Positions 3,016 through 64,000 of a DNA stretch of 64,000 nucleotides are shown one piece after another. Positions within the stretch are counted from its first letter, which is position 1, and every line of letters starts with the position of its first letter. Source of the stretch: Gemmatimonadaceae bacterium (GTDB taxonomy: Bacteria > Gemmatimonadota > Gemmatimonadetes > Gemmatimonadales > Gemmatimonadaceae); the NCBI GenBank assembly GCA_019637445.1, contig JAHBVS010000001.1, positions 965,586 to 1,029,585 on the forward strand, written 5' to 3'. The notes under the pieces were generated by a model, which was given only the letters and a program-made list of their open reading frames with translations, did no database searches and was not told the DNA's origin. The position numbers were made by a program, and so were the translations under genes.

Positions 3016-3081
3016 GGCGTGCACGCTCCCCCAGGGTCCGCGCGCTGGCGCCGCTTCCCGCACGCGACGAAGTTTCGCGCC

Positions 3082-3954
3082 ATGACAACCCGTCGCTCCT
3101 TCATCTCCGCGTTCGGGGCCGCCGCTGCCGGCCTCACCCTGCCGCCGTCGCTGCTCGCCAGCTGCCGGCCTCGCTCTGACGCGCAGACGGGCGAAGCGTC
3201 CACCGCCCTCGGCGGCATTGGCGTGCAGCTCTACCTGCTGCGCGGGGCGATGCAACGCGACGTCGAGGGCACGCTGGCGCGCATCGCCGAACTCGGGTTC
3301 CGCGAGGTCGAGTGGTGGGGCAGCTACGGGCGCTCGGCGGAAGAGCTCAAGGGATTGCTCGACAAGAACGGCCTGACCTCACCCGCCGTGCACGTGGATT
3401 CGCGGGAGCTGGCGCCGGACCGCCTCGAGACCACCTTGGCGCGCGCCGAGGCGATGGGCCAGCGCTGGGTCATCGTGCCGTCGACGAATCCGCCGCAGCG
3501 CAACACGGAGGGCTACACGGCGCTCGCGCAGTTGCTCTCGGCCGCCGGTCGTGCCGGCGCCTCGCGCGGCATCCGCGCGGGCTTCCACAACCACGACTAC
3601 GACTTCGCCGCCCGCGACGGCGGCACGCTCTGGAGCGTGCTGGCTCGCGAGAGCGATCCGTCAGTGGTTGATCTTGAGCTCGACTGCTATTGGGCCTTCA
3701 AGTCCGGACACGACCCGTTGACGGTGCTGCGCGCCCACGGCAGTCGCATCGCGCACCTGCACATCAAGGACTCGATGGGTCCCCCCGCGCACACGATGGT
3801 CGACGCCGGCGCCGGCGTGCTCGACTGGAAGGCCATCATCGACGAGGGGACGGCCCGCGGCGTGCGGCACGTCTACGTCGAACACGACAGTCCCGCCGAC
3901 GCCTGGGACTCGGCGTCGGCGGGACTGGGGCACCTGAAGGCGCTGGGCTACTGA
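3082..3954 (+). CDS. Exported TIM-barrel sugar phosphate isomerase/epimerase-like protein
   Basis: The 290-residue protein starts with a twin-arginine type signal (RRSF at 4-7), a hydrophobic stretch and a possible lipobox ending at Cys28 (LASC). The rest is a xylose-isomerase-like TIM barrel (AP endonuclease 2 superfamily). It shows GVQLYLLR at strand 1, the metal/substrate motif HNHDYD starting at His169, VDLELDCYW, and HLHIKD. Such exported barrels act on keto-sugars or as epimerases and hydratases in glycoside oxidation clusters. That fits the Gfo/Idh/MocA and DUF1080 genes a few kb downstream. ATG 3082 is chosen because the export signal begins there; longer in-frame extensions add only low-complexity residues. 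Confidence 0.8.
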   Translation: MTTRRSFISAFGAAAAGLTLPPSLLASCRPRSDAQTGEASTALGGIGVQLYLLRGAMQRDVEGTLARIAELGFREVEWWGSYGRSAEELKGLLDKNGLTSPAVHVDSRELAPDRLETTLARAEAMGQRWVIVPSTNPPQRNTEGYTALAQLLSAAGRAGASRGIRAGFHNHDYDFAARDGGTLWSVLARESDPSVVDLELDCYWAFKSGHDPLTVLRAHGSRIAHLHIKDSMGPPAHTMVDAGAGVLDWKAIIDEGTARGVRHVYVEHDSPADAWDSASAGLGHLKALGY

Positions 3955-47700: not shown

Positions 47701-50414
47701 GCTGGCCGGGCTTCGCAGAGATTGTGTGGAACGGCTCGGTCAGCGTGGACTGGTTTGATCCCGACAACTGGGTGCAGGGTGTGGTGCCGACCGCGGCGGA
47801 CTCGGTAGTCATCCCGCAAGTCGCGACGATGCCGACCATCTCGGCGCCGGCCACGGTGCGCGTGCTGCTGCACCAGGCGAACCCGGGCGTGGTCGGGGTC
47901 AACGATGTTCTCACGATCCTCGAGCGCGTCTCGGCAGGCTCAGACGGCGCCGGGCTGCAGTGCGGCCCCGCCGGCCGCATTGTGTTCGCCCCCACGGACA
48001 CCCTGCTCTTCACCGGCGACTTGCTGGGTTGCGATGTGCGCGTGACATCCGGCGTCGCGGCTCCCGCTGGCTACAGCAGCGTGGGCGACAGCCTCGAGAT
48101 CACCGGCACGGCGCAGCTGGATCTGCGCAACCAGGAGCTCTTCGTTTCCGGCGACTTGGTCACGGATCAGCAGGGCACGCTGCGGATGACGGATCCAGCC
48201 GCCACGCTCTACGCCAACGGCGGCGCGTTCTTCCACGGCGGGTCGACGGCCGGCCTGCTCACCGCTGGCACGATCTTCCTCAGCGGGGAGTTCCAGCAGC
48301 TCGCCACATACAGCGCAGAGGCGTTTGCCGCTGACCCTGGCCACCTCACACAGCTTACGGCGAGTGTCCTGCAGCCGAACTTCTTCGCCACCCCGGAGCT
48401 CGGCGCCGGCAGCTCGCACTTCGGCGACCTGCAGCTCGAGACCCCGGAGTGGTACCTGCAGTCCCCGACCGCCGTCAGCGGTTCGCTGATCCAGCCCGTC
48501 GGCGGGCCGAATGCCGTGGTGTCCTCGGCGTCGTCGCAGGTACTGGCGGTCCAGGGCCTCAGCGTCGAGCGCGACCTCACGTTCCGCGGCGTGCACCTCC
48601 AGATCGCCGGCGCGGCGCCGATGACCCTCACCGGCAACCTCACCTTCGAGCAGATGGTGGGGACAATGCCGCAACTCGACCTTGAGCGCGCGGGCGACAC
48701 GCTCACGGTCGGCATCCTGACCTTCGATACGACTGCGTCACACACGGGGCCGTTCGTCGACGTGCAGGACATCTCCGTCGATGGTGACTCGCTGACCTTG
48801 CTCGCCAGTGCCATCACGCCACTGTACCACGGCGGGCGTCTCGCGGTGCTTGGCGAAGGTCGCGTTCCCGGGTGGGACGCCGCGGAGCCCGGCGCCTTCA
48901 CGCCGAACTATTGGACAGGCGGCGGCGCGGACGGCCTCTGGGCCACGGCCGCCAACTGGAGCGAAGGGCGTGCGCCCCTGGCAATGGACAGCGTAGTCAT
49001 CAATCCCGGCGGGCCGGTGACGGTCACGCTCGACGCCAACGCGGACGTGGCCTACCTCCACGTCGGGGAGTCATCGGCCGTGGAGTTCCTGCACACGGCC
49101 GGGTTCGTCCTACAAATCGACAGCCTGTCGTTCTTCGGGACAACGTCCACCCTGCGCATTGGCGGCGGCGCCGAACTCACGGGCGACGGCAGCTTGGTGG
49201 TGTTTGGCAACCTGGACTGGCAGGACGGCTGGATGACGGGCTTCGGGAGCACCAGCGTGGCAGCAGGTGGGACGGCGACGCTGGGCTCGGTGGACGACAT
49301 CGTGCTCGACGACCGCGTGCTGTTGATCGGCGGCACGGCGACGATGGGTTCGGCCCAGCTGTTCGTGGAGAACTTCCCCACGCTCTACGTGATGGCGGGC
49401 GGCGAGCTCACGATCCCCGACACGCGCACGCTGACCGTGGGCACGGGCGATCCGTCGCTGTACGTGGACGGCACACTGCGCATCGCCGGCGCGCCGGCGG
49501 ACACGGTGCAGATCCACTGGTTCACCACCATTGGCCTCGATGGCGTCCTCGACGTGCAGAGCGGTACGCTGATCATGGTGTCGCCCTCATTGCTCTATGA
49601 CACCAACATCGCGGACGGGGCGGCGCTGAACCTGCGCGGCGCGGCCGAGTCGTACGGCACGATGAGCGTTTCCACGGGCGGGCGACTGCAGCTCGAATCC
49701 GGCGGCCTCGGCCCGGACACCGGTATCCACGCGTTCTATGGAAGCCTGACGGGCACCGGAGCGGTGCACGCCGTCAACGCGGTTTCGGTGAACGTCGAGG
49801 CGGGGATGGAAATCGACTCGTTGGTCGTGCAGAACGTGACGATGGAGTTCAATTCGCCGGTGGACACGATGTTCGTGGGACGAGGTGTGTACCTAGGCGG
49901 CGGGGTCTTCAGCGGAACGGGCGTGGTCGGCGTGCGGGAGTCGTTCGTCGGTCAGATCGGAAACATGGACGGCAGCGGGACGCTTGCGGTGTTGTCGGGG
50001 GCAACGGCAAGCCTGCAGGGCCCCGTGCGCGGATGGTTGCTGGACGTGGCGGGCACACTGGAGTGGGGCGACTGGAACTTGACCTTCTCGACAGATCCCA
50101 GCAGCGGGCAGTACACGTCGATGCTCGTCCGCAGCGGCGGCGTGTTCGACATCCTGCACGGCGCGACGGCCCGAGATCTCTCCGGCACGGGCACCGACAC
50201 CGCGCCAGACGCCAACGTAATTCAGGTGCTGGCTGGTGGTACTATCCGAAAGTCGAGCGGGACGGGAACCAGCACCATTCACGCGCGCGTGGAGATGGCC
50301 GGCACGTTCGAGTTCGTCTCGGGCACCATCAACGTACAAGGCACCTGCGACAACCCCATTCCAAGCGCGACCGGGTCCGGCACATTAACCGGTAGCTGCG
50401 GAGCGTACCCGTAA
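41775..50414 (+). CDS. Giant lipoprotein with ~11 invasin-like Ig repeats and beta-solenoid-like C-terminal modules
   Basis: The 2879-residue protein starts at TTG 41775 with a lipoprotein signal ending LLSLLSC (Cys23). Residues about 250-1375 hold 11 Big_1/invasin-type Ig repeats of about 100 residues, with lines such as VRVLDGFGNPVPGHTTTW. From 1377 three sections each begin with a WxG...W...NW..G..P..DSV.I motif (about 1377, 1985, 2377), followed by long stretches of short beta strands with glycine and aspartate, like a right-handed solenoid. No autotransporter barrel, LPXTG or T9SS-type C-terminus is present, so lipidation is the only visible anchor. It is probably a long surface filament or adhesin. 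It converges with the DUF72 gene. Confidence 0.85.
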   Translation: MRATAPGRLAIPAAVFLLSLLSCGREVTGPENGVFSGGRRVGALAVAPEYPSLMASVLGGSQVVPFERVRLVLRRTDGAVALDTLIAFPATVDSLTLAFLVPLPVNAPAEGVSMALAMAYINAAGDTVFRAGPQSVLVPPVRDGVTQPPVSTPIRYTGVGAGAASVQITPDTGTRVAGSSSGFTATALDGQSQPIAGTPLLFYTLDSTRASVTNPSTGATTWLPSRGTARIVAALPDGSRADTASISVTLPASQLVLGSGDLQTAPLGNPLGAPIVLRTLASDAVPVSGVIVSFAVSTGGGSLTVTTDTSDTNGEVSTGWTLGSAFGVQTITATAAGLSGSPLTVSATASAGAPAQLAVVSQPVAGVAGETLAPAIVIAVEDEQGNLVETFTGAVTLALPPAADATLGGTTTVNAVAGLATFNDLNLDIVGAYGLIATSGALTPDTTAAITVTAAAAARLTFITWPSGGVAGTTLAPTTTVRALDAFGNDATGFTGSISLQLLDGTGTLGGTTSVAAVAGVATFADLSVDLIGDAYTLRAFSGALQPDTTTAFTITPAAVAGLTLLGGDGQTAVAATLLPDVIALRTVDAFGNRVPGAGVTFSILTGGGDVVPPTTTADTSGRAVANWTLGATLGTQTLRVSLTGVPAVTLDVSATATVGPASQLVVTQQPADTVEAGATIPILVEARDALGNLVPTYVGTANITLLVNPTLTTLGGTTSAAFVGGVASLAPTIPASGAGYQFELSAGALSNATSAVFVVGAAAAATFEIVSGTPQSGQVGTAFPTPMVVRVLDGFGNPVPGHTTTWTSLAGASAVDAVTVLTDAAGEAQNGATFGTTAGDGQPGVGVTTAGLATVLQFDVDVAPGAPASIVLVDGNTQTETVDLPLPTPLSVRVTDGFGNGIAGVTVLWGVSAGQGQFTDTTSTTDAAGVASTVAILGTVAGAVQFEALVDGVAGSPVLFDATATPDIPVVVQALTGDEQTATAGAAYANPFVVRVEDIHGNPVPGVSVTFDVQTGAASFSDTTVVTDLNGEAQTTAVASSTAGAGTIGADAAGATPATFNVTITAATAFSLEYLLGDAQQDTVGVELADSLRVLVRDSFGNPVPNVSVDWAATGGSVSAATALTSASGEAAIAYTLGTVAGAQSATASVAGLSGSPVPFTMTAIAGAPSALVVVSAPDTVVSGVVPPPLEVEARDIHGNLVTWFVDDVTVTPTDAPDGAFTAGTTTRAAVGGVASFDDLVFGTPGPWLIEFASGDLTIGASLEVIPGPPASFTIESGNGQAGPTSALLPAPLVVRLLDALTNPVVGDTVIFTVTSGAGVLGNGFVVDTALTDANGDAQVTWTLGPDTLATQTVEAAYPGFTALAFTATPLPNVANRSWTGDALNGAWFDTGNWAGGVIPAATDSVLIPAGRPSYPDFGDLSGSDVTIGGLTVRSGANIAMDIGDLYVGGNVTVESPGGITSPGGRVIANGAGAHSIRGNIPLVVIADGGYALNGALITTLDLSITGGVLDVGLWTLGVGRDLFTSGVGALVMPAFSDVQVTRNASLQGDGSAGRLQGGTMTVQGDFSAGTTFAAAVDHTVNLVGVGLQTVAITDADTTYSATCSAACFGRLTSLKGIGDGGLVFASHAKAINGMQISGDTIGASGHTLIGAVTMDLNTTVVSAQRVAYSDNLLLGSTRIVDTLVAFNAGTPWPVVSVDAIPTLVAGARELNAVHSGAIIVGAGGALDIVGATEVGAGFYTRDNGVLQMSDAADTLVVAGSVEFAGGPSLLTNGALIVQGDFAQHTNADAFRAAPAHETVFAGNASFTVTFANPGFAPTESQFGTFVFEHPISSSMDIGSDIYASGALETRGNNPYWINGSNNRLLTRGAINVADVTFAAVQWELQDTQPVVGALFNLVFSGMDPAISQMRILRAGGTILLQSPTFDPVLSGGAYLEVEDGNPGDLDTLTVAISNPAPQLHGGGIIEANGARITGWPGFAEIVWNGSVSVDWFDPDNWVQGVVPTAADSVVIPQVATMPTISAPATVRVLLHQANPGVVGVNDVLTILERVSAGSDGAGLQCGPAGRIVFAPTDTLLFTGDLLGCDVRVTSGVAAPAGYSSVGDSLEITGTAQLDLRNQELFVSGDLVTDQQGTLRMTDPAATLYANGGAFFHGGSTAGLLTAGTIFLSGEFQQLATYSAEAFAADPGHLTQLTASVLQPNFFATPELGAGSSHFGDLQLETPEWYLQSPTAVSGSLIQPVGGPNAVVSSASSQVLAVQGLSVERDLTFRGVHLQIAGAAPMTLTGNLTFEQMVGTMPQLDLERAGDTLTVGILTFDTTASHTGPFVDVQDISVDGDSLTLLASAITPLYHGGRLAVLGEGRVPGWDAAEPGAFTPNYWTGGGADGLWATAANWSEGRAPLAMDSVVINPGGPVTVTLDANADVAYLHVGESSAVEFLHTAGFVLQIDSLSFFGTTSTLRIGGGAELTGDGSLVVFGNLDWQDGWMTGFGSTSVAAGGTATLGSVDDIVLDDRVLLIGGTATMGSAQLFVENFPTLYVMAGGELTIPDTRTLTVGTGDPSLYVDGTLRIAGAPADTVQIHWFTTIGLDGVLDVQSGTLIMVSPSLLYDTNIADGAALNLRGAAESYGTMSVSTGGRLQLESGGLGPDTGIHAFYGSLTGTGAVHAVNAVSVNVEAGMEIDSLVVQNVTMEFNSPVDTMFVGRGVYLGGGVFSGTGVVGVRESFVGQIGNMDGSGTLAVLSGATASLQGPVRGWLLDVAGTLEWGDWNLTFSTDPSSGQYTSMLVRSGGVFDILHGATARDLSGTGTDTAPDANVIQVLAGGTIRKSSGTGTSTIHARVEMAGTFEFVSGTINVQGTCDNPIPSATGSGTLTGSCGAYP
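42535..45900 (+). repeat. Array of ~11 Ig-like repeats within the 2879-aa lipoprotein gene
   Basis: Units of roughly 300 nt begin near 42535, 42835, 43140, 43455, 43755, 44065, 44380, 44680, 44975, 45280 and 45590. Each encodes a hydrophobic strand, a pattern like VRVxDxxGNPV and a small-residue strand. They differ enough to be individually recognisable. Confidence 0.75.
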
Positions 50415-51291: not shown

Positions 51292-54200
51292 TTACGGGAC
51301 GACCGGGCCGAGGTAGCGGATGATGATCTGGCCGTTCCCAACGCCAACCGCGGCGGTGTTCACCTGGTTGGTGCCGGTGTTGAGCGAGCCGCCGCCGCCG
51401 GCGACCCAACCGCCGTCGCCGCCGGAGTAGCCACCGCCACCGCCGCCGCCGTAGTCACCGTTGCCCGCGCCGCCGGCACCGAAGCCGCCCTGGGCGTCAT
51501 TCCCGCTGACGAGGGCCTGGGTGCCGCCGAGCAGTCCGTTGGCCCAGGAGCGGCCACCGAAGCCGACGAACGCGGCCCACCAGTCGGCGTAGTCATCGGC
51601 ACCATTGCCGAAGAACCCGCCGCCACCCGAGCCGTACGCATACGGCGACGTGAGCAGGCCGCCCAACCCGAGCTCGGTGGTCTTGACCGCGCAGACGTTG
51701 GACGGCGATTCGCCGCTGCCCACGCCGCCGTAGCCAACCGTGGTGGCATCGCAGCCATTCTGCGACGAACTCGCGCGCGCGCCAGCACCACCGCCGCCGA
51801 CAAGCAGCGGGGTGTTCGACATGTCGACGACGAAGCTGCCGCCGCCGCCACCGCCGTTCTGGTTACTGCCCTGACCCACGCCGGCCTGGCCCACCGCCAG
51901 CTGCAACTGCGTGCCCTGGCTGAACTCGAACTCACCGCGCATCGACGCGCCGCGTCCACCGACGAACAATGGATTGCCGTTCGCACCCTGCGCACCGACC
52001 GCGGTGATCTCATACCGCCCGGTGAACGGCAGCGTAAAGGTCTGGATGCCGCCGGCCACCGTGACACCGCCCGCCAGCGCGGTGCCCGTGTACGCCGTGT
52101 TGCACTGGGCCTGCGACGGCCCCGTCGCGCCGGCCTGCGTGCAGTTCGTGAAGGTGAACTCCGTATTGCCGACAATCACCGCAAAGGTGACGTTCGTGTA
52201 GGCCGAGAAGCCCTGGAGCATCACGTACCAGTCGCCCGCACCCGGGTTGGCGATCGTACAGGTCTCGACCGTCCCACCGATGTACGGGGCGCAGAGGGTA
52301 TCGCTCTCGAAGTAGTCGAGCACCTGCGGGCTCTGCCCGATCCGCAGGTACAGGTCCGGATCGCCGCTGCCGCCGAGCATCATCACGCGGAGCTGCGGCT
52401 GGCCGCCCGGAATCGAGAACACATAGTGGCGCTCCCCGCCGCCAACGTCGGAGATGCCGTTCACCACCGCGTCGTTCGCCACCTCGATCGGCGTGCGCGC
52501 CAGGCGCGCCGGCGAGTAGTCGCCGTTGCCGTCGGGGCTGACCGCACGCACGCGGAAGCGATACTCGGATGCCGGGTTGAGACCCGTCGCCGTGTACTCG
52601 CTAGCATTGGCCGCCGTTGTGCCGAGCAGCGCGAAGTCCGTGCAGGCCGCGCCTTCGCAGCCCTCGACCTCGAAGCCGCTCTCGAACGGCGCGTTGTCGG
52701 TCCAACGCAGCGTCACCGAGGTGCGGTCCGCCGTCTTGGCCACCGACGAGGCCGGAACCGGCAGGCCGGTCGACACCGCCGAGGCGTTCGACGGCAGCGA
52801 CGGACCCGCAATGTTGAAGGCTCGCACCACATACGTGTACGACGTCCCGTAGGTCAGGCCGGTGTCGTCATACGTCACGCTGTTCGGCGCGATATCCGCC
52901 ACCTGCGTGAAGTTGAGCGGGTCACCGCATCCGGTCTCGCAGCGGAAGACGCGGTATCCCGTCTCCGTGATGGCGTTATCGGTCCAGGTCAGGCGCACGC
53001 TGGTCCCCGACAGCGCCTGCGTCGCCAGGGCGGTGGCTGCCAGCGGCACGTTGGTGTTGGCCGCGGCGATGTTCGTGTAGCCCGCCGCCGGACCAATGTT
53101 GTTGAAGGACCGCACCCGGTACCGGTACGTCGTGTTGAGGCTGAGGCCCGTGTTGTTGTTGAAGGTCGTGATGTTCGGTCCAACCGTCGCCACCGGCGAG
53201 AAGTCGAGGCAGGCGGCACCGGCGCAGCGCTCGATCGAGAAGCCGCGCTCGTTGTCCGAGTTGTCGGTCCAGCTCAGTCCGATCGACGATCCGCTGAGCG
53301 TCGTGGCAGAAAGTCCGCTGGCGGCGGTGGGCACCACCATCGTCAGGTAGAACGTCGCCGATGGCGTCGAGTTGCCGATGGCGTTCGACGCCATCACGCG
53401 GTAGCCATAAGTCTGCCCCGGCGCGAGGCCGGCGTCATCGATGCGCAGCGTATCCGCGCCCGTCGTGCCGACCGTCACGTCAAAGACCACGCAGCCCACG
53501 CCGGCGCAGCGCTGCACCGTGAAGCCCGTCTCGTCAGTCGAGTTGTCCGTCCAGCCCAGGCGCGACTGCGTGCCCGAGAGCGCGAAGCCATCGAGAGCCG
53601 AGGGCGGGATCGGCACAATCAGCCCGACCGCGACCGCCGCCGAGTAGTTGCTCGTCCCGGCCGCGTTCACGTGCCGGACGCGGTACTCATAGGTCTCGCC
53701 CGGCGTCAGCGACTCGTCCAGATAGGTCACCGTCGGGCTGGTGACCGTCGTGACGGGCGCAAAGGCGCCGCAGGGGATGCCTTGGCAACGCTCAATCTCG
53801 GTGTCCGTCGCCAAGGTGTCGGCCGTCCAGGCAATCTGGATCGAGGTCGTGGACATCGCCTGCGAGGTCGTGATCAGCGGATCGCCAGGCAGGATGGTGT
53901 TCGCATACGCCACGTTGGTAAACGTGGTCACGCCGGCCAGGTTGCTGGCCTGCACGCGATAACGATACTCGTTGCCCACCGAGACGTCCGTATCGGAGTA
54001 GCCCGTGCCATCGGCGGCCACGGTCGCCACCTGCACGAAGTCAATGTCGTCCACGCAGGGCGAGCCGACGCAGCGCTGGACGATGAACTCGTCCTCGTTG
54101 CCCGAGTTGTCCGTCCAACTGATGTCGATCTGCGTGCCGCTGGTCGTCACGGCACTCAAGGCCGTCGGCGGCAGCGGGAAGTCCGTGCTGGCCGGGACCT

Positions 54201-57200
54201 CGGCCGAGAAGGCCGAGACGCCCGCCGCATTCGCGGCGTAGATGCGGTACTGGTAGTCCTCTCCGTCGGCGAGGCCCATATCCTGGTAGCTCGTCGCGTC
54301 GGCGCCGAGCGTGGCGACGAGCGCGTAGCTGCTGCAGCCAGCGCCCAAGCAGCGCTCGACGCGGTACTCGGCTTCATTGTCGGCGTTGTCCGTCCACGCC
54401 AGGTCGATCTGCGTCGCGGAGATGGTTGTGGCCGCCAGGTCCGTCGGCGCCGCCGGCGTGATGGTCGTGGCCGTGGCTTCCGCCGACACCGGCGAGTCGC
54501 CCGCGTCGTTGGAGGCGTAGACCCGATACGTGAACGACTCCTCGGGATCGAGCCCGGTGTCGCTGTACGCCTGGCTACCGGCGGGTAGCGCCGTCAGCAG
54601 CGAGAAGCTGCTGCACGCCGCCCCCACGCAACGTTCCACGGTATAGCCCGTCTCGTTGTCCGCCGCGTCGACCCAGGTCAACGCAATCTGCGAACCCGAG
54701 ACCGTAGTCGCGACCAAGCTCGTCGGCTGCGCCGGCACTGACGTGCTGATGGTCACCACCTCCGAGGGGTTCGAGACGCCATTCGCGTTCTCGGCCCGGA
54801 TGCGGAAGCGATACGTTGTCGCGGCCGCCAGTGAAGCGTCGGCATACACCGTCGCGTCGGCGGCGGTGGTCGCCGCCGGCGCGAAGTCCGTGCAGGCCAA
54901 GCCCGTGCAGCGCTCGACGACAAAGCCCGTCTCGTCACCGCTGTTGTCCGTCCAGCTCAGCGAGATCTGCGTGTCCGAATCCGTGTTGGCCATCAGGGCC
55001 GACGGAATCGACGGCACGTTGGTGATTGCCTGCTGCGGCGGCTCGGAGTACGCCGACGTGCCGGCACCGTTGATGGCGCGCACGCGGTACGCATACGTCT
55101 CACCCGGCGTCAGCGCCTCATCGAGATAGCTCGTGACATTGGCCCCGACTGTCGCGACGACAGCCGTCGGCGTGCACCCATCGCCCGCGCAGCGGGCGAT
55201 CTCGAAGCCCGACTCGTTGTCCGAGAGGTCCGTCCAGGCCAGCTCGATCTCCGACGGAGACGCCGACGTGGCGGTGAGCGCACTCGGCGCGGCCGGCAGC
55301 AGCGTCGACACGGTCACCTCGGTCGAATAGAACGAGGATCCGTTGCCGATCGCACGGACGCGGTAGCGATACTGCTCCTCGCCCGGCAGCCCGGCGTCGT
55401 CATACGACGTCGCGTCGGCGCCAAGCGTGGCGATCTCCGTGTAGTCCGAGCAGCCAGCGCCCGCGCAGCGCTCGACGCGATAGCCCGTCTCATCCGTCGC
55501 GTCGTCCGTCCATGAGAGGCTCGTCGAGGTTGTCGACGTGGCCACACCCGCAAGGCCGGTGGGCGTGGCGGGCACGGCGGTGGAGGCCTGGCCGGTGTTG
55601 CTGTAGCCGGAGGCACTCACGCCGTTGTAGGCGCGCACGCGATACCGGTACACGGTCCCCACCGAGAGATCGAGGTCAGAGTAGCTGACGGAGTTCTCAC
55701 CCGTCGTCGCCACCTCAACGAAGTCCGAGCAGGCTGCACCCGCGCAGCGCTCGATGCGGTAGCCCGACTCGTTGCCCGCGACGTCCGTCCAGGCGAGGTC
55801 GATCCGGTCGCCAAACACCGTCGTCGCGCCGAGGCCCGAGGGCGCCACCGGCGAGAAGGTGTTCGCCAGCACCGTCGGCGCGTAGGCCGACGCACCGGCG
55901 GCGTTGTAGGCGCGCACGCGGAACGAGTAGAAGGTGCTCAACGCCAAGCCGGTGCTCGAGAAGAAGGTCTCGTCCGGCCCGACCGTGCCCACTTCAATGA
56001 AGGACGAGCAGCCCGCGCCCGAGCACTGCTCGATACGGTAGCCGTCCTCGTTGTCGGCCGCGTCGGCCCAGGAGATGTCGATCTGCGAGCCGGAGATCAC
56101 CGCGGCGGTGACGCTCGCCGGCACGCCCGGCAGCAGCGTCGTCGCCTCGACCTCGGGAATCGCGTCCGAGGCGCCCGACACGTTGATGCCGAAGATACGG
56201 TAGCGATACGCCGTCTCCTCGGAGACCGAGAGGTCTTCGTAGATGTTCGTGTTGGGCGGGAGATCGATCAGCGTTGTGAAGTCCGTGCAAGACACGCCTT
56301 CGCAGCGCTCAATCCGGTACAGGTCCTCGTTCGGGGCGTTGTCGTCCCAGGCGAGGTTGATCTGCGTCGCCGAGACCGTGGTCGCGACGAAGTTCGACGG
56401 TGAGAACGGACGCAGCGTGTTCGCGCTGGCCTCCGCGGTGTAGGCCGAGTTCGCGACGTTGTTGATGGCGCGCACGCGGTAGCGGTACTCGCCATCCACC
56501 GGGACGCTCGTGTCCTCGTAGCTGGCGCTGTTCGGCGGCAGCGACACGATCTCCGCGAAGTCGGAGCAGGCCGCGCCCGTGCAGCGCTCGACCGAGATCG
56601 AGAGCTCGTTGTTTGCGTTCTCCGTCCAGGCCAGGTCGATCTGCGTGCCGTTGATGGTCGTCGCCGACAGCGCGGTCGGGGCCGCCGGGGCGAAGGTGTT
56701 CGTCGACGAGACGTTGCTGTAGCCCGAGATGCCGTTGCCGTTCAGCGCCTGGACCCGATAGCTGTAGCTCTGGTCGGCCAGCGCGGTCCCGTCGGGATAC
56801 GACGTATTGTTGGGGCCGAGCAGCGCGATCTGGGCAAAGCTCACGCAACCGGCGCCGACGCAGCGCTCGATGATGTACTGCGTCTCGTTGTTCGCGTTGT
56901 CCGTCCACGCGAGGTTGACCTGCGTGGCCGAGGCCGCGACGGCCGTCAGGTCCGACGGATCGGCGGGCAGGTTCGTCTCGGCCTGGGCGGTGCCGGAGTA
57001 CGCCGACATGCCGACCGCATTCACGGCACGTAGGCGGTAGCGGTACAACACGCCGGCCGTGAGGCCCGCATCCGTGTACGCCACGGCGCTGGCCCCGGTG
57101 GTGCCGACGAGCACGAAGTCCGAGCAGGCGGCGCCTTCGCAGCGCTCGACCTCGAACGCGGTCTCAAACGGCCCGTTGTCCGTCCACGCGAGGTCGATCC

Positions 57201-60200
57201 GCGTCGACGAGAACGTCGTGGCAACCAGGGCGCTCGGCGCGTCCGGCAGGAAGGTGTTCGCCGAGGTCACGTTCGAGACCGGCGACCAGCCCACCGCGTT
57301 GTTCGACAGCACGCGGTACGCGTAGTAGAGATCCGGCGCGACCGTATCATCAGTGTACGAGGTCGAGTCGCGCGGCACGGCCCCGATCTGCGCGAAGTCC
57401 ACGCAGGCCTGGCCCGTACAGCGCTCGATCACGAACTCGTTCTCGTTGTCCGAGGGGTCCGTCCAGCTGATCCCGATGGACGTCCCGGACAGCGTCGTGG
57501 CGATGGCGTTCGACGGCGCCGCGGGCGCGGCCACGAGGATCGACACCGGGGCCGTGTAGGCGGAAAGATCGGCGAAGTTCGAGTGCGCGACGCGGTACCG
57601 GTAGGTCAGGCCCGGCGTGATGGTCGCATCCTCGAAGACCTGCGGATCGGTGGCCAAGACAGCCCCGACCTGGGCGAACGACAGGCAATCGACGCCCTCG
57701 CAGCGCTCGATGATCGTGGAGACGACCGGTCCCACAGCCGGATCCACGCCGACGGTCCAGTAGACCTGGACGGTGGCCGGGTTCGCGACCAGCGTGAGCT
57801 CCGTCGGCACCGGCGGATCCTGCGTGCTCACCGTCGACAGGGCGGAGAACCCGGAGAAGCCCGAGGCGTTGAACGCGCGCACGCGATACGTGAAGCGCGT
57901 GTCCGCCGACAGGGTGAGGTCGGAGTAGACCACGACATCCGCACCGACCGTCGCGATCTCCGTGAAGTCCGTGCAGTCCACGCCGTCGCAGCGCTCGATG
58001 CTGAAGCCCGCTTCGTTGTTGGACTCGTCCGTCCAGACCAGGTCGGCCGAGGTCTCCGTCGTGGTCGTGGCCGCGAGGCCACTCGGCGCCGTCGGCACGA
58101 AGGTCGTCGAGGTGGCCTCGTTGGTCGGCGCCGAGCGGCCGAACAACGTTGCCGCGCTCACGCGATACGTGTAGGACTCGTCCGCCGAGAGGCCGGTGTC
58201 GTTGTACGCCACCACATCGGCCGGCAGCGAGTCGAGCACGGTGAAGTCCGCGCAGGCCGCACCGACGCAGCGCTCGATGACGAAGCCGTTCTCGTCACCC
58301 GAGTTGTCCAACCAGGCCAGTGCGATCTCCGTCTGGCTCTGGGTCGTCGTCACCAAGGCCGTCGGCGCGTTGGCGACGATCGTCGCCAGGGCCGCGGCCG
58401 CCGTGTAGTTCGACGGCCCGACGTTGTTGACGGCCCGGACGCGGAAGAAGTAGAGGGTGTTCGCCACGACTGAGGCGTCCACGAAGGCCGTGGAATCCGC
58501 CGCCGGGATGGCGTACGACTCCACGATGTTCGAGCAGTCGGACAGGTCGCAGCGCTCGAGCGTGAAGCCCGTCTCGTTGTCGGCGTTGTCCGTCCAGGTG
58601 ACGAGCACCTGGCCCGTGGTGACCGAGTAGCTCAGGCCCGTCGGGTCGGCCGGCGTGCGCGTGTTGGCCGCCACCGTGTCCGACGGCGCACCCGTGCCCG
58701 ACACGTTCAGCGCGCGAATGACATAGCGATAGTCGTTGCCCGGCGTGACGGTGATGTCCGAGTAGACGCCGTCCGCCGGGTCTGCCGTGTCGATGACCGT
58801 GAGGTTCGTGCAGCCGACGCCCGTGCAGCGCAGGATCTCCTGCGAGGTCACGTTCGGGCCTGTGGAGAGCGTCCAGAAGAGGTTGATCTCGGTGCCCGAG
58901 GTGACCCCAGAGAACAAGGTCGCCGGCGCGGTCGGGACCTGCGTCGTCGCCGTGGCCGGACCGGCGTAGGCCGACGATCCAGATGAGTTGGTCGCGCGGA
59001 TCTGATACTGGTAGACGTTGCCCTGCGTCACCGTGCCGTCCGAGAACGCGGTGATCCCCGGCGGCAGCGTCTGCAGAGGCGCGAAGTCCGCGCAGCCTGC
59101 GCCGGTGCAGCGCTCAATCTCGATCTGCGTTGCGTTCGTGGTGTTGTTCGTCCACGCCAGGTCCACCTGCGTGGCTGAGACCGCGACTGCCGTCAGCGTG
59201 CTCGGCGCAGCAGGCAGCTGGGTGTTGGCCGACGCCGTGTTCGAGAAGCCGGAGTTGCCGGCCAGGTTGAACGCGCGGAGACGGTACTCGTAGTCCGCGC
59301 CGGCGGTGGCACCGACATCGGAGTAGTTGAAGACATCGGCCGCGACCGTGTCGTAGGGCGTGAAGCCCACGCAGCCCACGCCGGTGCAGCGCTGGATCTC
59401 GAAGCCGTTCTCGTTGTTCGAGGCGTCCACCCAGGCCAGGTCGATGCGCGTGGCGCTGATGGTCGTCGCCGACAAGGTCGTCGGCGCATCCGGCAGCAGC
59501 GTGTTCGCCGTGGCGATGTTGGTGTAGGCCGAGTTGCCGGCCACGCCCGTGGCCCGCACCTGGTAGCGGTACGTCACGCCGACAACGACCGTCAGGTCGG
59601 AGAACGACACCGGGGTCGTCGCCACCGTGTCGATCGCCGCGAAGCCCGTGCAACCGCCGCCTGAGCAGCGTTCGATGATGAAGCCGGTCGACGGCGCGTC
59701 AGCGATCGACGCATCCGTCCAGGCGAGATCGATCCGCGTGCCGTTTACGAGCGTAGCTGTCAGCGTCGTCGGGGCCAGCGGCGCGCGCGTGTTTCCCGCG
59801 ACGATGGTCGAGGTCGCCGTGGACACCACCGCATTGAAGGCGCGGATACGGTAGCCGTAGTCGTTGCCGAAAGTGACGCCCGTGTCCTGGAAGCTGGTGA
59901 CGTTGGACGCGACGTCGGCGACCTGCGCGAAGCCCGTGGTGCAGCCCGCGCCGGTGCAACGCTCGATGCGATAGCCGGTTTCCGTTGTGGCGTTGTCGGT
60001 CCAGCTGAGGTCGATCCGCGTGCCGCTGACCGTCGTGGCCGTGACACCCGTGGCGGTGGCCGGCGGGATGGTGTTGGCCTCCTCCTCCGTGGAGTAGGCC
60101 GAGGCCATCACGTTGTTGATGGCGCGGACGCGATAGCGATAGGTCTGGTTGTAGACGATGCCCGTGGTGTTGCTGTAGCTCGTCGCGCCGGCCGGTAGCG

Positions 60201-61644
60201 TCGCGATGTTCGTGAACGTGTCGCAACCCGCGCCGGCGCAGCGCTCGACTTCGTAGCCCGTCTCGTTCGTCGCGATGTCGTTCCACGCGAGGTCGATCTG
60301 CGTGACGGACACGGTCGTGGCGGCCAGCCCCGTGGGCGCCGCCGGACCGAAGGTGTTTGCGGCGACCACGGCGGTCGCGTTCGACGTGCCCACCGCGTTG
60401 AGCGCGCGCACGCGCCAGCGGTAGTTGTTGTCTTGCGTCAGCGCGTCGTCGCTGTAGGCGACGGTGTTCGCCGGGACCGTGTCAACGGGCGCCGGCGTGC
60501 AGGTGGTGCCCAGGCAGCGCTCGATAATGAAGCCCGTCTCGTTGTCCGAGTTGTCGGTCCAGGTGAGGTCCACCTGCGTACCCGAGGCGACCGTCGCGCC
60601 CAGCGCGCTCGGCGCCAGCGGTAGGCGACGGATCTCGACCGTCAGTTCATAGTGGCCAACGGTACTCGGCGCGACGCCGTCCACGCGGAGCTTGTGCACC
60701 TCCGTGTTGGTCGGGACAAACACGAGCCGCGAGTCGCTACCCGCGCCGTTGTCGTCCTGCGCCACCTGCGTGACTGAGTCATTGCGGAACAGCGTGACGC
60801 GCGTGTCGAGCGGCGACGGGTTCTCGGTGAGCCGACGCGCCCGCGTCTCCACGAAGAGCGAGTCGCCAGCGCGGAGATCGACGTTGTACCAATCAGACGG
60901 CTTGGCACCGGTGAGATTGCGACCCGTGACGACTTCCGGCTGCTCCGGGACCAGCGGCGGCAGCGGCACTGGCGCTGCCTCCACCACGTTCCATTGCCGG
61001 GTATTCGACCACGGCACGTCATCCGCGTTGAGGCGCGGGAACGTCGCACGACCACGTACGAACCAGGTGCCGGGCCCCGTGACTTGGATCAGGGCCGGCA
61101 ACTCGCTGGGAGCGAACAAGCGCGTCGTGCCGGGATCAGTCGCAAAGGTCGCGTCCGTGGAGTACTGCAGGGTGTATCCCGTCGCGGCCGGCAACGTGGC
61201 GAACGGAATCCGCTGCGTGAAGCTCGACACGTCCGGAATGGCGGGAATGTCGAGCGCGGGCGCCGCCTCGGCGTACGGCACCGTCGGCGTGGACGTCTGG
61301 CCGCGCTGTACCTGCACGCCTGCCACCCGCCCGTAGTACTGCACCTGGCCGAGTGCCCGGCCCTCGATGATCAGCTCATAGCTGCCCTCGGGCAGCCCGT
61401 TGATTCGGCCCGTCCAGTTGCCTCCCGACTGCGTGAGGTCCACGCTCCGCGTCTCGGTGCCGAACACGCGCGCCGTGACCGAGGTCGGCTGTACGACGTT
61501 TGCGACCTTGCTGGTGTCCAACCGCACCAATTCGATGCGCGGTGCGATGTGGCCCTCCGTCGGTGCGCGCAGCGGCGCATCGCAGGAGACCAGGAGGAGA
61601 GCCGCGACGGACCCAGCGGCGAAGCCAAGATGACGGCGATTCAT
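51292..61644 (-). CDS. Giant lipoprotein: 29 fibronectin type III modules, PPC domains, ALK/LTK-like glycine-rich C-terminus
   Basis: The 3450-residue protein has a lipoprotein signal (LLLVSC, Cys21). A PEGA-like beta domain (about 40-105) and a second sandwich lead to a PPC-like domain (about 235-335). Then come 29 FN3 modules of about 94 residues (about 338-3055), nearly all reading IDLAWTDN..E.G..IERCxGxxCxxF with a CX4C pair. A second PPC domain (about 3055-3165; GDPDLYLRIGQSP, TIANPGAGDWYVML) is followed by a glycine-rich domain (about 3165-3450) with GRYEITAVGAQGANG, QLQLAVGQAG, PLLVGGGGAGA and long Gly runs, like the glycine-rich domain of ALK/LTK. It is probably surface-exposed. It starts 15 nt after the pseudoprotease-like gene, in the same operon. 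Confidence 0.9.
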   Translation of the reverse strand: MNRRHLGFAAGSVAALLLVSCDAPLRAPTEGHIAPRIELVRLDTSKVANVVQPTSVTARVFGTETRSVDLTQSGGNWTGRINGLPEGSYELIIEGRALGQVQYYGRVAGVQVQRGQTSTPTVPYAEAAPALDIPAIPDVSSFTQRIPFATLPAATGYTLQYSTDATFATDPGTTRLFAPSELPALIQVTGPGTWFVRGRATFPRLNADDVPWSNTRQWNVVEAAPVPLPPLVPEQPEVVTGRNLTGAKPSDWYNVDLRAGDSLFVETRARRLTENPSPLDTRVTLFRNDSVTQVAQDDNGAGSDSRLVFVPTNTEVHKLRVDGVAPSTVGHYELTVEIRRLPLAPSALGATVASGTQVDLTWTDNSDNETGFIIERCLGTTCTPAPVDTVPANTVAYSDDALTQDNNYRWRVRALNAVGTSNATAVVAANTFGPAAPTGLAATTVSVTQIDLAWNDIATNETGYEVERCAGAGCDTFTNIATLPAGATSYSNTTGIVYNQTYRYRVRAINNVMASAYSTEEEANTIPPATATGVTATTVSGTRIDLSWTDNATTETGYRIERCTGAGCTTGFAQVADVASNVTSFQDTGVTFGNDYGYRIRAFNAVVSTATSTIVAGNTRAPLAPTTLTATLVNGTRIDLAWTDASIADAPSTGFIIERCSGGGCTGFAAIDTVATTPVSFSDLTVVVGVTYRYQVRATGVAGNSAYTNIATANTLLPDAPTTLSATTISATRIDLAWVDASNNENGFEIQRCTGVGCVGFTPYDTVAADVFNYSDVGATAGADYEYRLRAFNLAGNSGFSNTASANTQLPAAPSTLTAVAVSATQVDLAWTNNTTNATQIEIERCTGAGCADFAPLQTLPPGITAFSDGTVTQGNVYQYQIRATNSSGSSAYAGPATATTQVPTAPATLFSGVTSGTEINLFWTLSTGPNVTSQEILRCTGVGCTNLTVIDTADPADGVYSDITVTPGNDYRYVIRALNVSGTGAPSDTVAANTRTPADPTGLSYSVTTGQVLVTWTDNADNETGFTLERCDLSDCSNIVESYAIPAADSTAFVDASVVANTLYFFRVRAVNNVGPSNYTAAAALATIVANAPTALVTTTQSQTEIALAWLDNSGDENGFVIERCVGAACADFTVLDSLPADVVAYNDTGLSADESYTYRVSAATLFGRSAPTNEATSTTFVPTAPSGLAATTTTETSADLVWTDESNNEAGFSIERCDGVDCTDFTEIATVGADVVVYSDLTLSADTRFTYRVRAFNASGFSGFSALSTVSTQDPPVPTELTLVANPATVQVYWTVGVDPAVGPVVSTIIERCEGVDCLSFAQVGAVLATDPQVFEDATITPGLTYRYRVAHSNFADLSAYTAPVSILVAAPAAPSNAIATTLSGTSIGISWTDPSDNENEFVIERCTGQACVDFAQIGAVPRDSTSYTDDTVAPDLYYAYRVLSNNAVGWSPVSNVTSANTFLPDAPSALVATTFSSTRIDLAWTDNGPFETAFEVERCEGAACSDFVLVGTTGASAVAYTDAGLTAGVLYRYRLRAVNAVGMSAYSGTAQAETNLPADPSDLTAVAASATQVNLAWTDNANNETQYIIERCVGAGCVSFAQIALLGPNNTSYPDGTALADQSYSYRVQALNGNGISGYSNVSSTNTFAPAAPTALSATTINGTQIDLAWTENANNELSISVERCTGAACSDFAEIVSLPPNSASYEDTSVPVDGEYRYRVRAINNVANSAYTAEASANTLRPFSPSNFVATTVSATQINLAWDDNAPNEDLYRIERCEGVSCTDFTTLIDLPPNTNIYEDLSVSEETAYRYRIFGINVSGASDAIPEVEATTLLPGVPASVTAAVISGSQIDISWADAADNEDGYRIEQCSGAGCSSFIEVGTVGPDETFFSSTGLALSTFYSFRVRAYNAAGASAYAPTVLANTFSPVAPSGLGATTVFGDRIDLAWTDVAGNESGYRIERCAGAACSDFVEVATTGENSVSYSDLDLSVGTVYRYRVRAYNGVSASGYSNTGQASTAVPATPTGLAGVATSTTSTSLSWTDDATDETGYRVERCAGAGCSDYTEIATLGADATSYDDAGLPGEEQYRYRVRAIGNGSSFYSTEVTVSTLLPAAPSALTATSASPSEIELAWTDLSDNESGFEIARCAGDGCTPTAVVATVGANVTSYLDEALTPGETYAYRVRAINGAGTSAYSEPPQQAITNVPSIPSALMANTDSDTQISLSWTDNSGDETGFVVERCTGLACTDFAPAATTAADATVYADASLAAATTYRFRIRAENANGVSNPSEVVTISTSVPAQPTSLVATTVSGSQIALTWVDAADNETGYTVERCVGAACSSFSLLTALPAGSQAYSDTGLDPEESFTYRVYASNDAGDSPVSAEATATTITPAAPTDLAATTISATQIDLAWTDNADNEAEYRVERCLGAGCSSYALVATLGADATSYQDMGLADGEDYQYRIYAANAAGVSAFSAEVPASTDFPLPPTALSAVTTSGTQIDISWTDNSGNEDEFIVQRCVGSPCVDDIDFVQVATVAADGTGYSDTDVSVGNEYRYRVQASNLAGVTTFTNVAYANTILPGDPLITTSQAMSTTSIQIAWTADTLATDTEIERCQGIPCGAFAPVTTVTSPTVTYLDESLTPGETYEYRVRHVNAAGTSNYSAAVAVGLIVPIPPSALDGFALSGTQSRLGWTDNSTDETGFTVQRCAGVGCVVFDVTVGTTGADTLRIDDAGLAPGQTYGYRVMASNAIGNSTPSATFYLTMVVPTAASGLSATTLSGSSIGLSWTDNSDNERGFSIERCAGAACLDFSPVATVGPNITTFNNNTGLSLNTTYRYRVRSFNNIGPAAGYTNIAAANTNVPLAATALATQALSGTSVRLTWTDNAITETGYRVFRCETGCGDPLNFTQVADIAPNSVTYDDTGLTYGTSYTYVVRAFNIAGPSLPSNASAVSTGLPVPASSVAKTADRTSVTLRWTDNAPFESGFEVEGCEGAACTDFALLGTTAANASEYTATGLNPASEYRFRVRAVSPDGNGDYSPARLARTPIEVANDAVVNGISDVGGGERHYVFSIPGGQPQLRVMMLGGSGDPDLYLRIGQSPQVLDYFESDTLCAPYIGGTVETCTIANPGAGDWYVMLQGFSAYTNVTFAVIVGNTEFTFTNCTQAGATGPSQAQCNTAYTGTALAGGVTVAGGIQTFTLPFTGRYEITAVGAQGANGNPLFVGGRGASMRGEFEFSQGTQLQLAVGQAGVGQGSNQNGGGGGGSFVVDMSNTPLLVGGGGAGARASSSQNGCDATTVGYGGVGSGESPSNVCAVKTTELGLGGLLTSPYAYGSGGGGFFGNGADDYADWWAAFVGFGGRSWANGLLGGTQALVSGNDAQGGFGAGGAGNGDYGGGGGGGYSGGDGGWVAGGGGSLNTGTNQVNTAAVGVGNGQIIIRYLGPVVP
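52485..60630 (-). repeat. FN3 repeat array (29 units)
   Basis: Units of about 270-290 nt encode the FN3 modules of the 3450-aa lipoprotein. Each unit carries a codon run for ERCxGxxC that on the plus strand appears as recurring GCAGCGCTCGA-type sequences. Neighbouring units share protein motifs but are diverged at the DNA level. Confidence 0.85.
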
Positions 61645-61659: not shown

Positions 61660-63270
61660 TTACGGTGTGACCGGCACGGAAATCGTGATCGAACCGCCTG
61701 AACTGCCACTGCCACCACCACCGCCACCGAGTGCGAGCGCGGCCGCGGCCCCTCCACCGATGATGGCCGCCCAGGCCCAGCGCGGCATCCCGCGCCGTTG
61801 CGGCTGCGCGGCGGCCTGCGCCACGACGAGCGGAACGGCCGCGCGGGTGGTCTGGCCCGCCACCACGGTGATCTCCTGCGTGCGCGACGGCACACCCGGT
61901 GCGGTCACTTCCATCCGATAGCGTCCACTCGCCGCGCGGAAGGTGAACGGTGCCGGCCCGTTGGCAGCCAGTTCCTCCCACTGCCAGGCCTCAAGCGGCG
62001 TCATCCGCACCGAGGCGTTCTGCGCGCCGGTGACGGTCACGACCACCGTGCCATAGCGGTGATTCTCCTGCGTGGCGACTTCCTGCGGCGTGCGCGTGTT
62101 CTGCGCGATGATGTTCTCTCGTGCGCGCGCGAGCAGGGGGCCGATCACCGTCGCGGGCGCGGCGCGCAGCCCGCCGCTCCACGTGCCGGCGTAGCGGCCC
62201 TGGAAGTCCACGAAGGGCGAACCGATGATCAGCGGCGGCAATGTGTCGAGCACCAGCGCGCCCTGCGGGCGGCCTTCCCAGCTTGCCAGCGAGGTCTGCA
62301 CGGCGCTCGGCGTGCTGCAGTTGGCGAGTTGCACGCCCCACAGGGCCTGCCCGTCGAGCAACATCTGCGCGTCGCCCGCGAGCGTGTCGGGGCGCGCGGA
62401 AGGCAGCATCAACACGGCGAGGTTTGCCGTGGCATCCCAGGCGGCGACGCGCACGGCGCCGTCGGCGTCCACGGCGTCGGCGCCGCGGATGGCGTGGTAC
62501 GAGGTGATGACGAGACGACCGCCATCGGCGGTGACGCCGGCCACGCAGGCCTGCGGCATGCCGAAGCGCGTGACATTGAGCGGCACGGTGGCGCGGAAGA
62601 GGCGGTCGCGCACGTCGTCGGCGATGACGTTGGATGCCGAGGAGACGAGCGTGAACGAGAACTCCGTGGTCACGCCCGGCAGGGCCTCACGACGAATGCG
62701 AAGCGGGAGGAAGCCCGTCGCACTGACTTCGAGGTCGTAGGAACCAGGCGGCAGCGAGCGGCCTGCGGCGCCGACCAGACCCACGCCCGTGACGAGCACC
62801 GTCACCGGTGTGCCCGACGCTGCGACCTGAAAGCGCGCCTCCGTCACCGTCGACGTCGCGTTCGGCCAGGTGTAGCGCGACTGTGAGAATGCATCGCCCG
62901 CTTCCGGCGTCACTTCGGTGCGCGCCTGCGCGAAGAGCGCGGGCAACGACGTGAGGAAGCCCTCGGTGAAGATCTGCATCTGCGGGTTCTGCCGGAGGGC
63001 CCAGCGCGCCCACAGCCCGGCCTGCTGCTGCTGCCCATCATCGACCAGTGTCTGCGTCAGCACGTGCACCGCGACTGACCAGGTACTGTCGAGCGGCCCG
63101 AGCGCGGGGTCGAGCGCCGCGCGCGCCAAGCGAATCGCGCGTTGTGTGTCGAACTCGTCGGTCGCGGCACGCGACTGGCTGATCAGGGTGGCGCGGTCCT
63201 GCGCCGCCGCGGACTGCGGTAGCAGGCAGGCAGCGACGAGAGCAAGCGCAGCAAGACGGAACGATCGCAT
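61660..63270 (-). CDS. Exported PEGA/trypsin-like protein, probably catalytically inactive
   Basis: The 536-residue product has a signal peptide (ending QSAAAQ), a helical TPR-like stretch (about 25-120) and a PEGA-like beta domain (about 145-210, LPPGSYDLEVSATGFLPLRI). The middle part resembles HtrA/trypsin: LVITSYHAIRG with His259 at the catalytic His, DATANLAVLML with Asn283 where Asp is expected, and LIIGSPFVDFQG with Ile349 at the usual Ser. A second PEGA-like domain (about 425-490), a transmembrane helix (WAWAAIIGGGAAAALAL) and a Gly/Ser tail follow. It is likely a periplasmic scaffold or binding protein. Its ATG overlaps the previous stop (TGATG). Confidence 0.72.
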   Translation of the reverse strand: MRSFRLAALALVAACLLPQSAAAQDRATLISQSRAATDEFDTQRAIRLARAALDPALGPLDSTWSVAVHVLTQTLVDDGQQQQAGLWARWALRQNPQMQIFTEGFLTSLPALFAQARTEVTPEAGDAFSQSRYTWPNATSTVTEARFQVAASGTPVTVLVTGVGLVGAAGRSLPPGSYDLEVSATGFLPLRIRREALPGVTTEFSFTLVSSASNVIADDVRDRLFRATVPLNVTRFGMPQACVAGVTADGGRLVITSYHAIRGADAVDADGAVRVAAWDATANLAVLMLPSARPDTLAGDAQMLLDGQALWGVQLANCSTPSAVQTSLASWEGRPQGALVLDTLPPLIIGSPFVDFQGRYAGTWSGGLRAAPATVIGPLLARARENIIAQNTRTPQEVATQENHRYGTVVVTVTGAQNASVRMTPLEAWQWEELAANGPAPFTFRAASGRYRMEVTAPGVPSRTQEITVVAGQTTRAAVPLVVAQAAAQPQRRGMPRWAWAAIIGGGAAAALALGGGGGGSGSSGGSITISVPVTP

Positions 63271-64000
63271 CAGGGTCGGGGCTGAAGCGTGATGTTGACG
63301 CGTTGTGGCGGGCCTGCGCGCAGCGTGACGGCCGTGTCCACCGTGACAAAGCCCTCGCGCTGGATCTTGATCAGGTGATCACCAGGCGTGAGCTGTTCCT
63401 GCAGCGTACGGCGCTCTCCCTTCGAGACGCCGTCGATGAAGATCGTGGCTGGCGTGGAAAGCACCAGCTGCAGCGTGGCCGGACCCGTTGGCGCTGCCTC
63501 GGCAGGCGGCGTGGCAGGCGTGGTCGCTGGCGTCGAGGCGGGTGTACTCGCCGGATTGCCCGTCGACGTATTCGCCGTGGTGTTCGGCTGCGTCTGCGGC
63601 GTCGTGGTTGGCCGATTCGGCGTGGTCGCCGGATTTCGAGTCGGCGAGTTCGTTGGATTGCGCGTCGGGTTCGTCGGCGGCGCTGACTTCTGGTTGCTCG
63701 GCGCCGGATTGTCAGCAGGCGGCGTCTGCGCCGCCGGTGCATTCACCGTCGTATCCGGCACGACAGGCGGCGGCGTCACCGTGGGATTCGCCTGCGTGCC
63801 CGTCGCAGAGTTCGGCTCACCATTCGCCACCTGCCCTGACGGCGCAGCCGACGCCCCACCACCAATCAACCCCATCTTCCACGCACCGAACCCACCACCG
63901 CCCAGCACAACCACAAGCGCCGCCGCCGCCAACGGCATCTTGCTCGACTTCGCCGGCGTCGGCGCCGTACGCGGCGCGGCCTTCCCAGCCGCCACCGGCG
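63270..64000 (-). CDS. Membrane protein with PEGA domain, C-terminal part (possible Ser/Thr kinase; continues beyond window)
   Basis: The frame is open to the window edge and encodes 242 residues, ending in a PEGA domain (about the last 75: LQLVLSTPATIFIDGVSKGE, LTPGDHLIKIQREGF). Before it are a proline/threonine/asparagine-rich linker of about 110 residues, one transmembrane helix (PLAAAALVVVLGGGGFGAWK) and a basic, Pro/Ala-rich juxtamembrane stretch. This layout (cytoplasmic part, single helix, disordered linker, PEGA) is common at the C-terminus of bacterial Ser/Thr protein kinases, but no kinase domain is inside the window, so this is only a proposal. It is the promoter-proximal visible gene of the giant-FN3 operon. 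Confidence 0.65.
   Translation of the reverse strand, partial: PVAAGKAAPRTAPTPAKSSKMPLAAAALVVVLGGGGFGAWKMGLIGGGASAAPSGQVANGEPNSATGTQANPTVTPPPVVPDTTVNAPAAQTPPADNPAPSNQKSAPPTNPTRNPTNSPTRNPATTPNRPTTTPQTQPNTTANTSTGNPASTPASTPATTPATPPAEAAPTGPATLQLVLSTPATIFIDGVSKGERRTLQEQLTPGDHLIKIQREGFVTVDTAVTLRAGPPQRVNITLQPRP

Follow-up and report, generated by a model that had tools for sequence, protein, structure and literature searches.

A bacterial FN3-rod lipoprotein, predicted from sequence, that ends in a domain homologous to the ligand-binding region of ALK and LTK

In the 64,000-nucleotide window of a Gemmatimonadaceae genome considered here (that is, the whole stretch of DNA that was analyzed), a predicted lipoprotein of 3,450 amino acids ends in a tip that is homologous over its whole length to the TNF-like plus glycine-rich domain of the animal receptors ALK and LTK; fold and ancestry both appear to be shared. 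The lipoprotein is encoded beside a Ser/Thr kinase in an operon that has the same gene order in seven genomes of the genus, and among the orthologues the heads vary while base and operon stay constant. We think there is a good chance that the tip is an interchangeable, distal binding head of ALK/LTK fold, carried on a stalk of FN3 and PPC domains and directed at an extracellular partner. As a family, the domain has been described before (Pfam PF12810); what is new is the kinase operon with its swapped heads.

Results

The lipoprotein gene occupies positions 51292-61644 of the minus strand, and every motif that the first-pass annotation of this DNA had quoted is in frame within it. Residues 1-337 (60634..61644, minus strand) comprise a signal sequence with a lipobox and an N-terminal base; the lipobox (MNRRHLGFAAGSVAALLLVSC; LLLVSC, Cys21) was seen by eye, and it is on this that the protein is predicted to be a lipoprotein. 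A rod of 29 FN3 units (counted at i-E<=0.01) follows at residues 338-3051 (52492..60633, minus strand; Pfam fn3 E=1.7e-156), so that both marks of an FN3-rod lipoprotein, lipobox (by eye) and FN3 array, are present. The "long FN3 rod" of the annotation is therefore real, as is the terminal tip; what had been missed was a PPC (pre-peptidase C-terminal) region between the two, at residues 3061-3159 (52168..52464, minus strand; Pfam stretch 3073-3145, PF04151 E=3.7e-10), and likewise the upstream operon. The tip, earlier placed at 51292-52150, is present there and begins slightly further upstream: it covers residues 3160-3450 (51295..52167, minus strand, plus the stop). It forms the free C-terminal end, with the stop codon directly after residue 3450, a few residues past its last strand. 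Glycine makes up 81 of its 291 residues (28%), with runs of G6, G4, G4, G7 and G4. For the 3,450-residue protein as a whole, Pfam returned FN3-like/Ig-like families and PPC only.

A single-sequence phmmer search of the PDB with the tip retrieved human ALK (7mzy, E=9.3e-11) by way of the N-terminal, least glycine-rich part. The aligned segment (FTNCTQAGATGPSQAQCNTAY) was matched to a 21-residue stretch of ALK, and the signature FTxCgasGxxGPxQAQCNxAY...GIQxWxVP is common to the two. When a profile built from 23 bacterial and phage sequences (alignment A4) was run against 177,635 distinct PDB sequences, nine were found at E<=0.1, all of them ALK, LTK or worm SCD-2; the best match, to ALK (E=3e-38), spanned profile positions 2-277 of 279. 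Tip and human ALK are 33% identical over 249 aligned columns, and 17% identical once Gly-Gly columns are left out.

Because a high glycine content can by itself produce spurious matches, each comparison was accompanied by 500 full shuffles and 500 shuffles in which every Gly was held fixed. A prokaryote-only profile of 25 rows scored 136.5 bits against human ALK (best full shuffle -6.0, best Gly-fixed shuffle 24.3) and 128.8 bits against LTK (-2.5 and 21.7, respectively). The window tip scored 218.1 bits with a profile from which it and locus L040 had been removed (-19.0 and 42.0), and 43.8 bits with a profile of ALK and LTK (-24.5 and -17.8). For the glycine-rich part taken by itself, the scores were 97.7 bits for the window (best shuffle 28.5) and 51.2 bits for ALK (best shuffle 22.9). 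Since the match is lost in the Gly-fixed shuffles, the similarity to ALK/LTK is not a matter of glycine bias.

The annotation had expected a Pfam match over the whole domain, and in this it was disappointed: PF12810 (ALK_LTK_GRD) does not match the full tip, and with the tip's N-terminal 120 residues alone it reaches 24.4 bits, just below the cut-off of 24.5. By strict Pfam rule the window tip is thus not a listed member of PF12810; we claim it as a homologue with a shared fold. Among the 23 members of A4, PF12810 matches nine at E<=0.01, and phrog_22713 (function unknown in PHROGs) matches all 23. A PF12810 search of the bacterium's own genome likewise gave no match although the domain is there, which means that the curated model misses the window domain.

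AlphaFold2, run on A4, returned a model with a pLDDT of 90.0, a pTM of 0.91 and zero residues below 50, and all 21 Foldseek matches at E<=0.001 were to ALK, LTK or SCD-2. VIA-align superposed the model on LTK (7nx0_B) with a Z of 34.2, at 1.9 Å over 242 residues and 36% identity; ALK (7mzy_B) gave a Z of 33.7, and worm SCD-2 (7lir_B) a Z of 23.1 with 22% identity, as against 34-36% for the human receptors. The Pam3 phage fibre reached a Z of 8-8.9 over 131-133 residues and TNF-family proteins about 5; VIA-align covers the Foldseek-ranked chains, and as phage S16 gp38 is not among the chains listed, its absence is uninformative. The predicted model accordingly has the fold of the ALK/LTK TNF-like plus glycine-rich domain, and its superposition on LTK at 1.9 Å would imply polyglycine-II geometry, with putative polyglycine-II helices for the modeled glycine strands. 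Phmmer, profile, predicted structure and structure comparison all agree with the earlier proposal of an ALK/LTK-like domain across the whole of some 280 residues, and the model is as ordered as that proposal had anticipated. A likeness to the domain was also seen in the tail tip protein of mycobacteriophage Bxb1 (PDB 9d93 chain Qa; Z 8.7).

What the tip has in common with the ligand-binding domain of human LTK/ALK (7NX0, 7NX1, 7MZY, 7LRZ and 7N00) is the whole TNF-like plus glycine-rich domain, including the N-terminal signature and the Cys pair C688/C701, which is aligned and kept and which forms a disulfide in ALK. By contrast, E859, Y966, E974 and E978, presumably the residues through which ALK contacts its ligand (ALKAL), align with G, Q, V and Q in the tip and so are not conserved, and the tip lacks an ALK-specific insert (about 30-35 residues). 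Moreover, while ALK combines an EGF-like domain, a transmembrane segment and a tyrosine kinase in one protein, the bacterial lipoprotein is without all three. Given these missing parts and the unconserved ligand contacts, it is not an ALK-family receptor tyrosine kinase; it has the domain of ALK and is not the receptor. Caenorhabditis elegans SCD-2 (7LIR) has the same fold as the tip but is more distant from it than are the human receptors.

The lipoprotein is encoded by the third gene of an operon whose members lie on one strand in the order Ser/Thr kinase with PEGA, DegP-like/PEGA membrane protein, lipoprotein. The C-terminal part of the 615-residue kinase is found at 63270..64000 (minus strand), the remainder lying beyond the window (L048:2356-4203); the protein has a Pkinase domain (E=5.7e-46), a PEGA domain and, by eye, a transmembrane segment. 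Its stop overlaps by 1 nucleotide the start of the gene for the 536-residue membrane protein (61660..63270, minus strand), which ends 15 nucleotides ahead of the lipoprotein start. This second protein has a signal peptide and a C-terminal transmembrane segment (by eye), a CarboxypepD_reg domain, a PEGA match below cut-off and a degenerate DegP-like segment; its profile found Deg1 (E=1.3e-5) and the anti-sigma factor RsgI9 (E=6.8e-4) in the PDB. Where the DegP-like part would have its catalytic His, the residue is not conserved among the seven orthologues. Of 148 family genomes, seven encode the protein, and these are exactly the same-genus genomes with matches to the N terminus of the lipoprotein. 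In all seven the gene order is held and the kinase motifs HRDIKPAN and DFG are intact.

The N-terminal base of the lipoprotein finds matches in 10 of the 148 family genomes: seven belong to the bacterium's own genus, its own genome included (E<=1.4e-8), while the three in other genera are weak (E between 8e-5 and 6e-4). Long FN3 rods are present in five of the seven same-genus genomes, in open frames of 2940-3484 residues, with 42-44% identity to the window rod in the best alignments. Two of the five (G000 and G415) bear the ALK-like head, their tips being 53% identical over 292 positions. In the other three (G049, G070 and G227), base, rod and PPC are retained and lead to an unrelated tip of ~150 residues (25-38% mutual identity); Pfam gave no match for these C-terminal tips (L041, L042 and L043), the first of the three being searched as a 110-residue C-terminal part. 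The last two proteins, L044 (G245) and L045 (G232), are shorter; in them a similar base leads into RCC1-like repeats in place of the FN3 rod (Pfam, run on G245: RCC1 E=2.2e-51, plus Big_2). The base is thus kept even where the heads differ, with ALK-like heads in two of seven, the ~150-residue tip in three and RCC1-like repeats in two. At E<=1e-6, the A4 profile detects the domain in 2 of 17 genus genomes and 3 of 395 sampled phylum genomes. The domain profile also matches, less strongly, at two further loci (L063 and L064), both in G031, of the same family.

More distant relatives come from bacteria and phages. Of 12 viral loci from IMG/VR, nine were used in A4, the others being cut off (L007), without the N-terminal part (L011) or broken in frame (L014). 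All 13 bacterial loci, from one scan of GTDB genomes, were used; they are mainly from Bacteroidota, with single ones from Deltaproteobacteria, Marinimicrobia, Rhodoferax and an unclassified bacterium. L004 and L040 stood outside A4 and the structure prediction and were included in the human ALK comparison, the shuffle controls and the tree. Neither tblastn with the first 120 residues of the tip, against phages and plasmids, nor a single-sequence viral scan with the tip found anything. A family-level match, L002, was rejected; it overlaps ordinary genes. The domain is C-terminal in 4 of the 13 bacterial relatives and placed elsewhere in nine, so the "tip" position is not universal; full-length Pfam searches of six of the 13 gave Por_Secre_tail in three (one below cut-off), IPTL-CTERM in one, PKD in one and none in one. 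Among the nine phage members of A4, it is C-terminal in six. The phage relatives adjoin genes matching tail-fibre/baseplate PHROGs (10 neighbor proteins, six loci scanned). At two loci (L012:2833-5508 and L005:6901-7947), the protein adjoining the one found also matches phrog_22713, which gives two such glycine-rich domains in adjoining phage genes.

In the tree, ALK and LTK form a long branch of their own with a deviating letter make-up, and the backbone is open. The window groups with L040, L024 (Bacteroidota) and L017 (Myxococcota) with support of 99/99, which suggests that the domain may have been transferred between phyla. Among 50 listed viral matches in BFVD/UniProt, eight are named "receptor protein-tyrosine kinase"; these names are probably automatic, passed on from the ALK-like glycine-rich domain.

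Discussion

How might such a protein work? The last 291 residues would form a TNF-like beta sandwich whose long loops enter a packed bundle of glycine-rich strands, as in ALK/LTK. This head would stand at the far end of the predicted lipoprotein, past 29 FN3 units and the PPC domain, and its variable loop ends may be presented to an extracellular partner, be it another cell, a glycan or a secreted molecule. Most likely, the protein either serves as an adhesin or forms the outer portion of a kinase-linked sensor. A ligand- or surface-binding tip was also what the first-pass annotation had in mind; we infer the same, and more firmly, from the swapping of heads and from the phage relatives in tail-fibre/baseplate regions. 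The protein is presumably displayed on the outer surface. In E. coli, Asp at position +2 favors retention of a lipoprotein in the inner membrane; as the orthologues inspected all have Asp at +2 from the lipobox Cys, surface exposure is, by this rule, in some doubt.

Two known systems offer partial parallels. The distal head of cyanophage Pam3 gp24 (7YFW and 7YPX) is TNF-like and glycine-rich, has been assigned a role in host recognition and has been likened to worm ALK (PMC9608196); gp24 is not among the A4 profile matches at E<=0.1. TasL of Vibrio, an adhesin of heterotypic cell-cell contact, resembles the window protein in being a large predicted lipoprotein with FN3 repeats (C-terminal in TasL), but it has five of them and belongs to a type VI secretion genomic island, and the available part of its description mentions no ALK-like head (PMC9040878).

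One alternative, possible though rather unlikely, is that the operon encodes a split receptor kinase: once the head had sensed a ligand or surface, the signal would travel by way of the lipoprotein base and DegP-like/PEGA protein to the PEGA Ser/Thr kinase, making a two- or three-gene analogue of ALK. Gene order is the whole basis of this proposal. The three genes stay together in the same order, with kinase motifs intact, in seven of seven genomes, the 536-residue protein is restricted among 148 genomes to the seven with the lipoprotein base, and an anti-sigma factor (RsgI9) is one of that protein's nearest PDB matches. However, gene order indicates co-regulation and not contact, and the same kinase is paired with quite different heads. 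Were the idea true, such a receptor would use the ectodomain fold of an animal receptor tyrosine kinase. The broader notion of a modular, kinase-linked bacterial surface sensor, with heads exchanged between species, one of them truly homologous to ALK/LTK, and with the domain circulating among bacteria and phages, is one that we advance tentatively and would not, on balance, expect to hold.

It is somewhat less probable again that the head has no ligand-binding site and serves a structural purpose in a surface layer or fibre, as a cap or as a self-assembling unit. TNF-like folds often trimerise, which would suit such a role. Pam3 gp24, TNF-like and glycine-rich as the tip is, forms a trimer, on an alpha-helical shaft (PMC9608196). 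The unrelated heads in orthologues and the variable loop lengths nonetheless fit recognition better.

Convergence on a glycine-rich fold, as in S16 gp38, with no homology to ALK, seems very improbable. Glycine-rich helical bundles do occur in phage S16 gp38 and ALK/LTK alike (PMC13243192), but the match is carried by non-Gly positions, the N-terminal signature is shared with ALK, and phage fibre folds reach a Z of about 9 versus 34 for LTK. A disordered, low-complexity glycine tail, to which the 28% Gly and the blank Pfam result for the full tip might point, can hardly be squared with a pLDDT of 90, a pTM of 0.91, no residue below 50 and a Z of 34.

We return, then, to an interchangeable binding head on a long stalk. 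In the CC-licensed papers searched we found none that describes an ALK-like domain terminating an FN3 rod in bacteria, and none on such a PEGA kinase operon. The domain family is not in itself new, as PF12810 already matches several of the bacterial and phage relatives and the BFVD/UniProt names cover some of the listed viral matches. The ligand-binding domain of ALK/LTK has an unusual fold linked to animal signalling and cancer, and a bacterial copy so close to it (Z 34; worm 23) is simple material for studying what the fold itself recognizes and by what route it came to animals. A kinase operon that stays the same while its heads are swapped amounts to a natural experiment, in which base and kinase are constant and the head is varied.

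The window also encodes a second giant predicted lipoprotein, of 2879 residues (41775-50414, plus strand), with Big_1 domains and a borderline G8 match. It and the FN3 lipoprotein are convergent, and a DUF72 gene separates the two. Of the six other loci, G415 alone shares this DUF72 gene, which is downstream of the FN3 lipoprotein (82% identity); L041 has a short, weak match.
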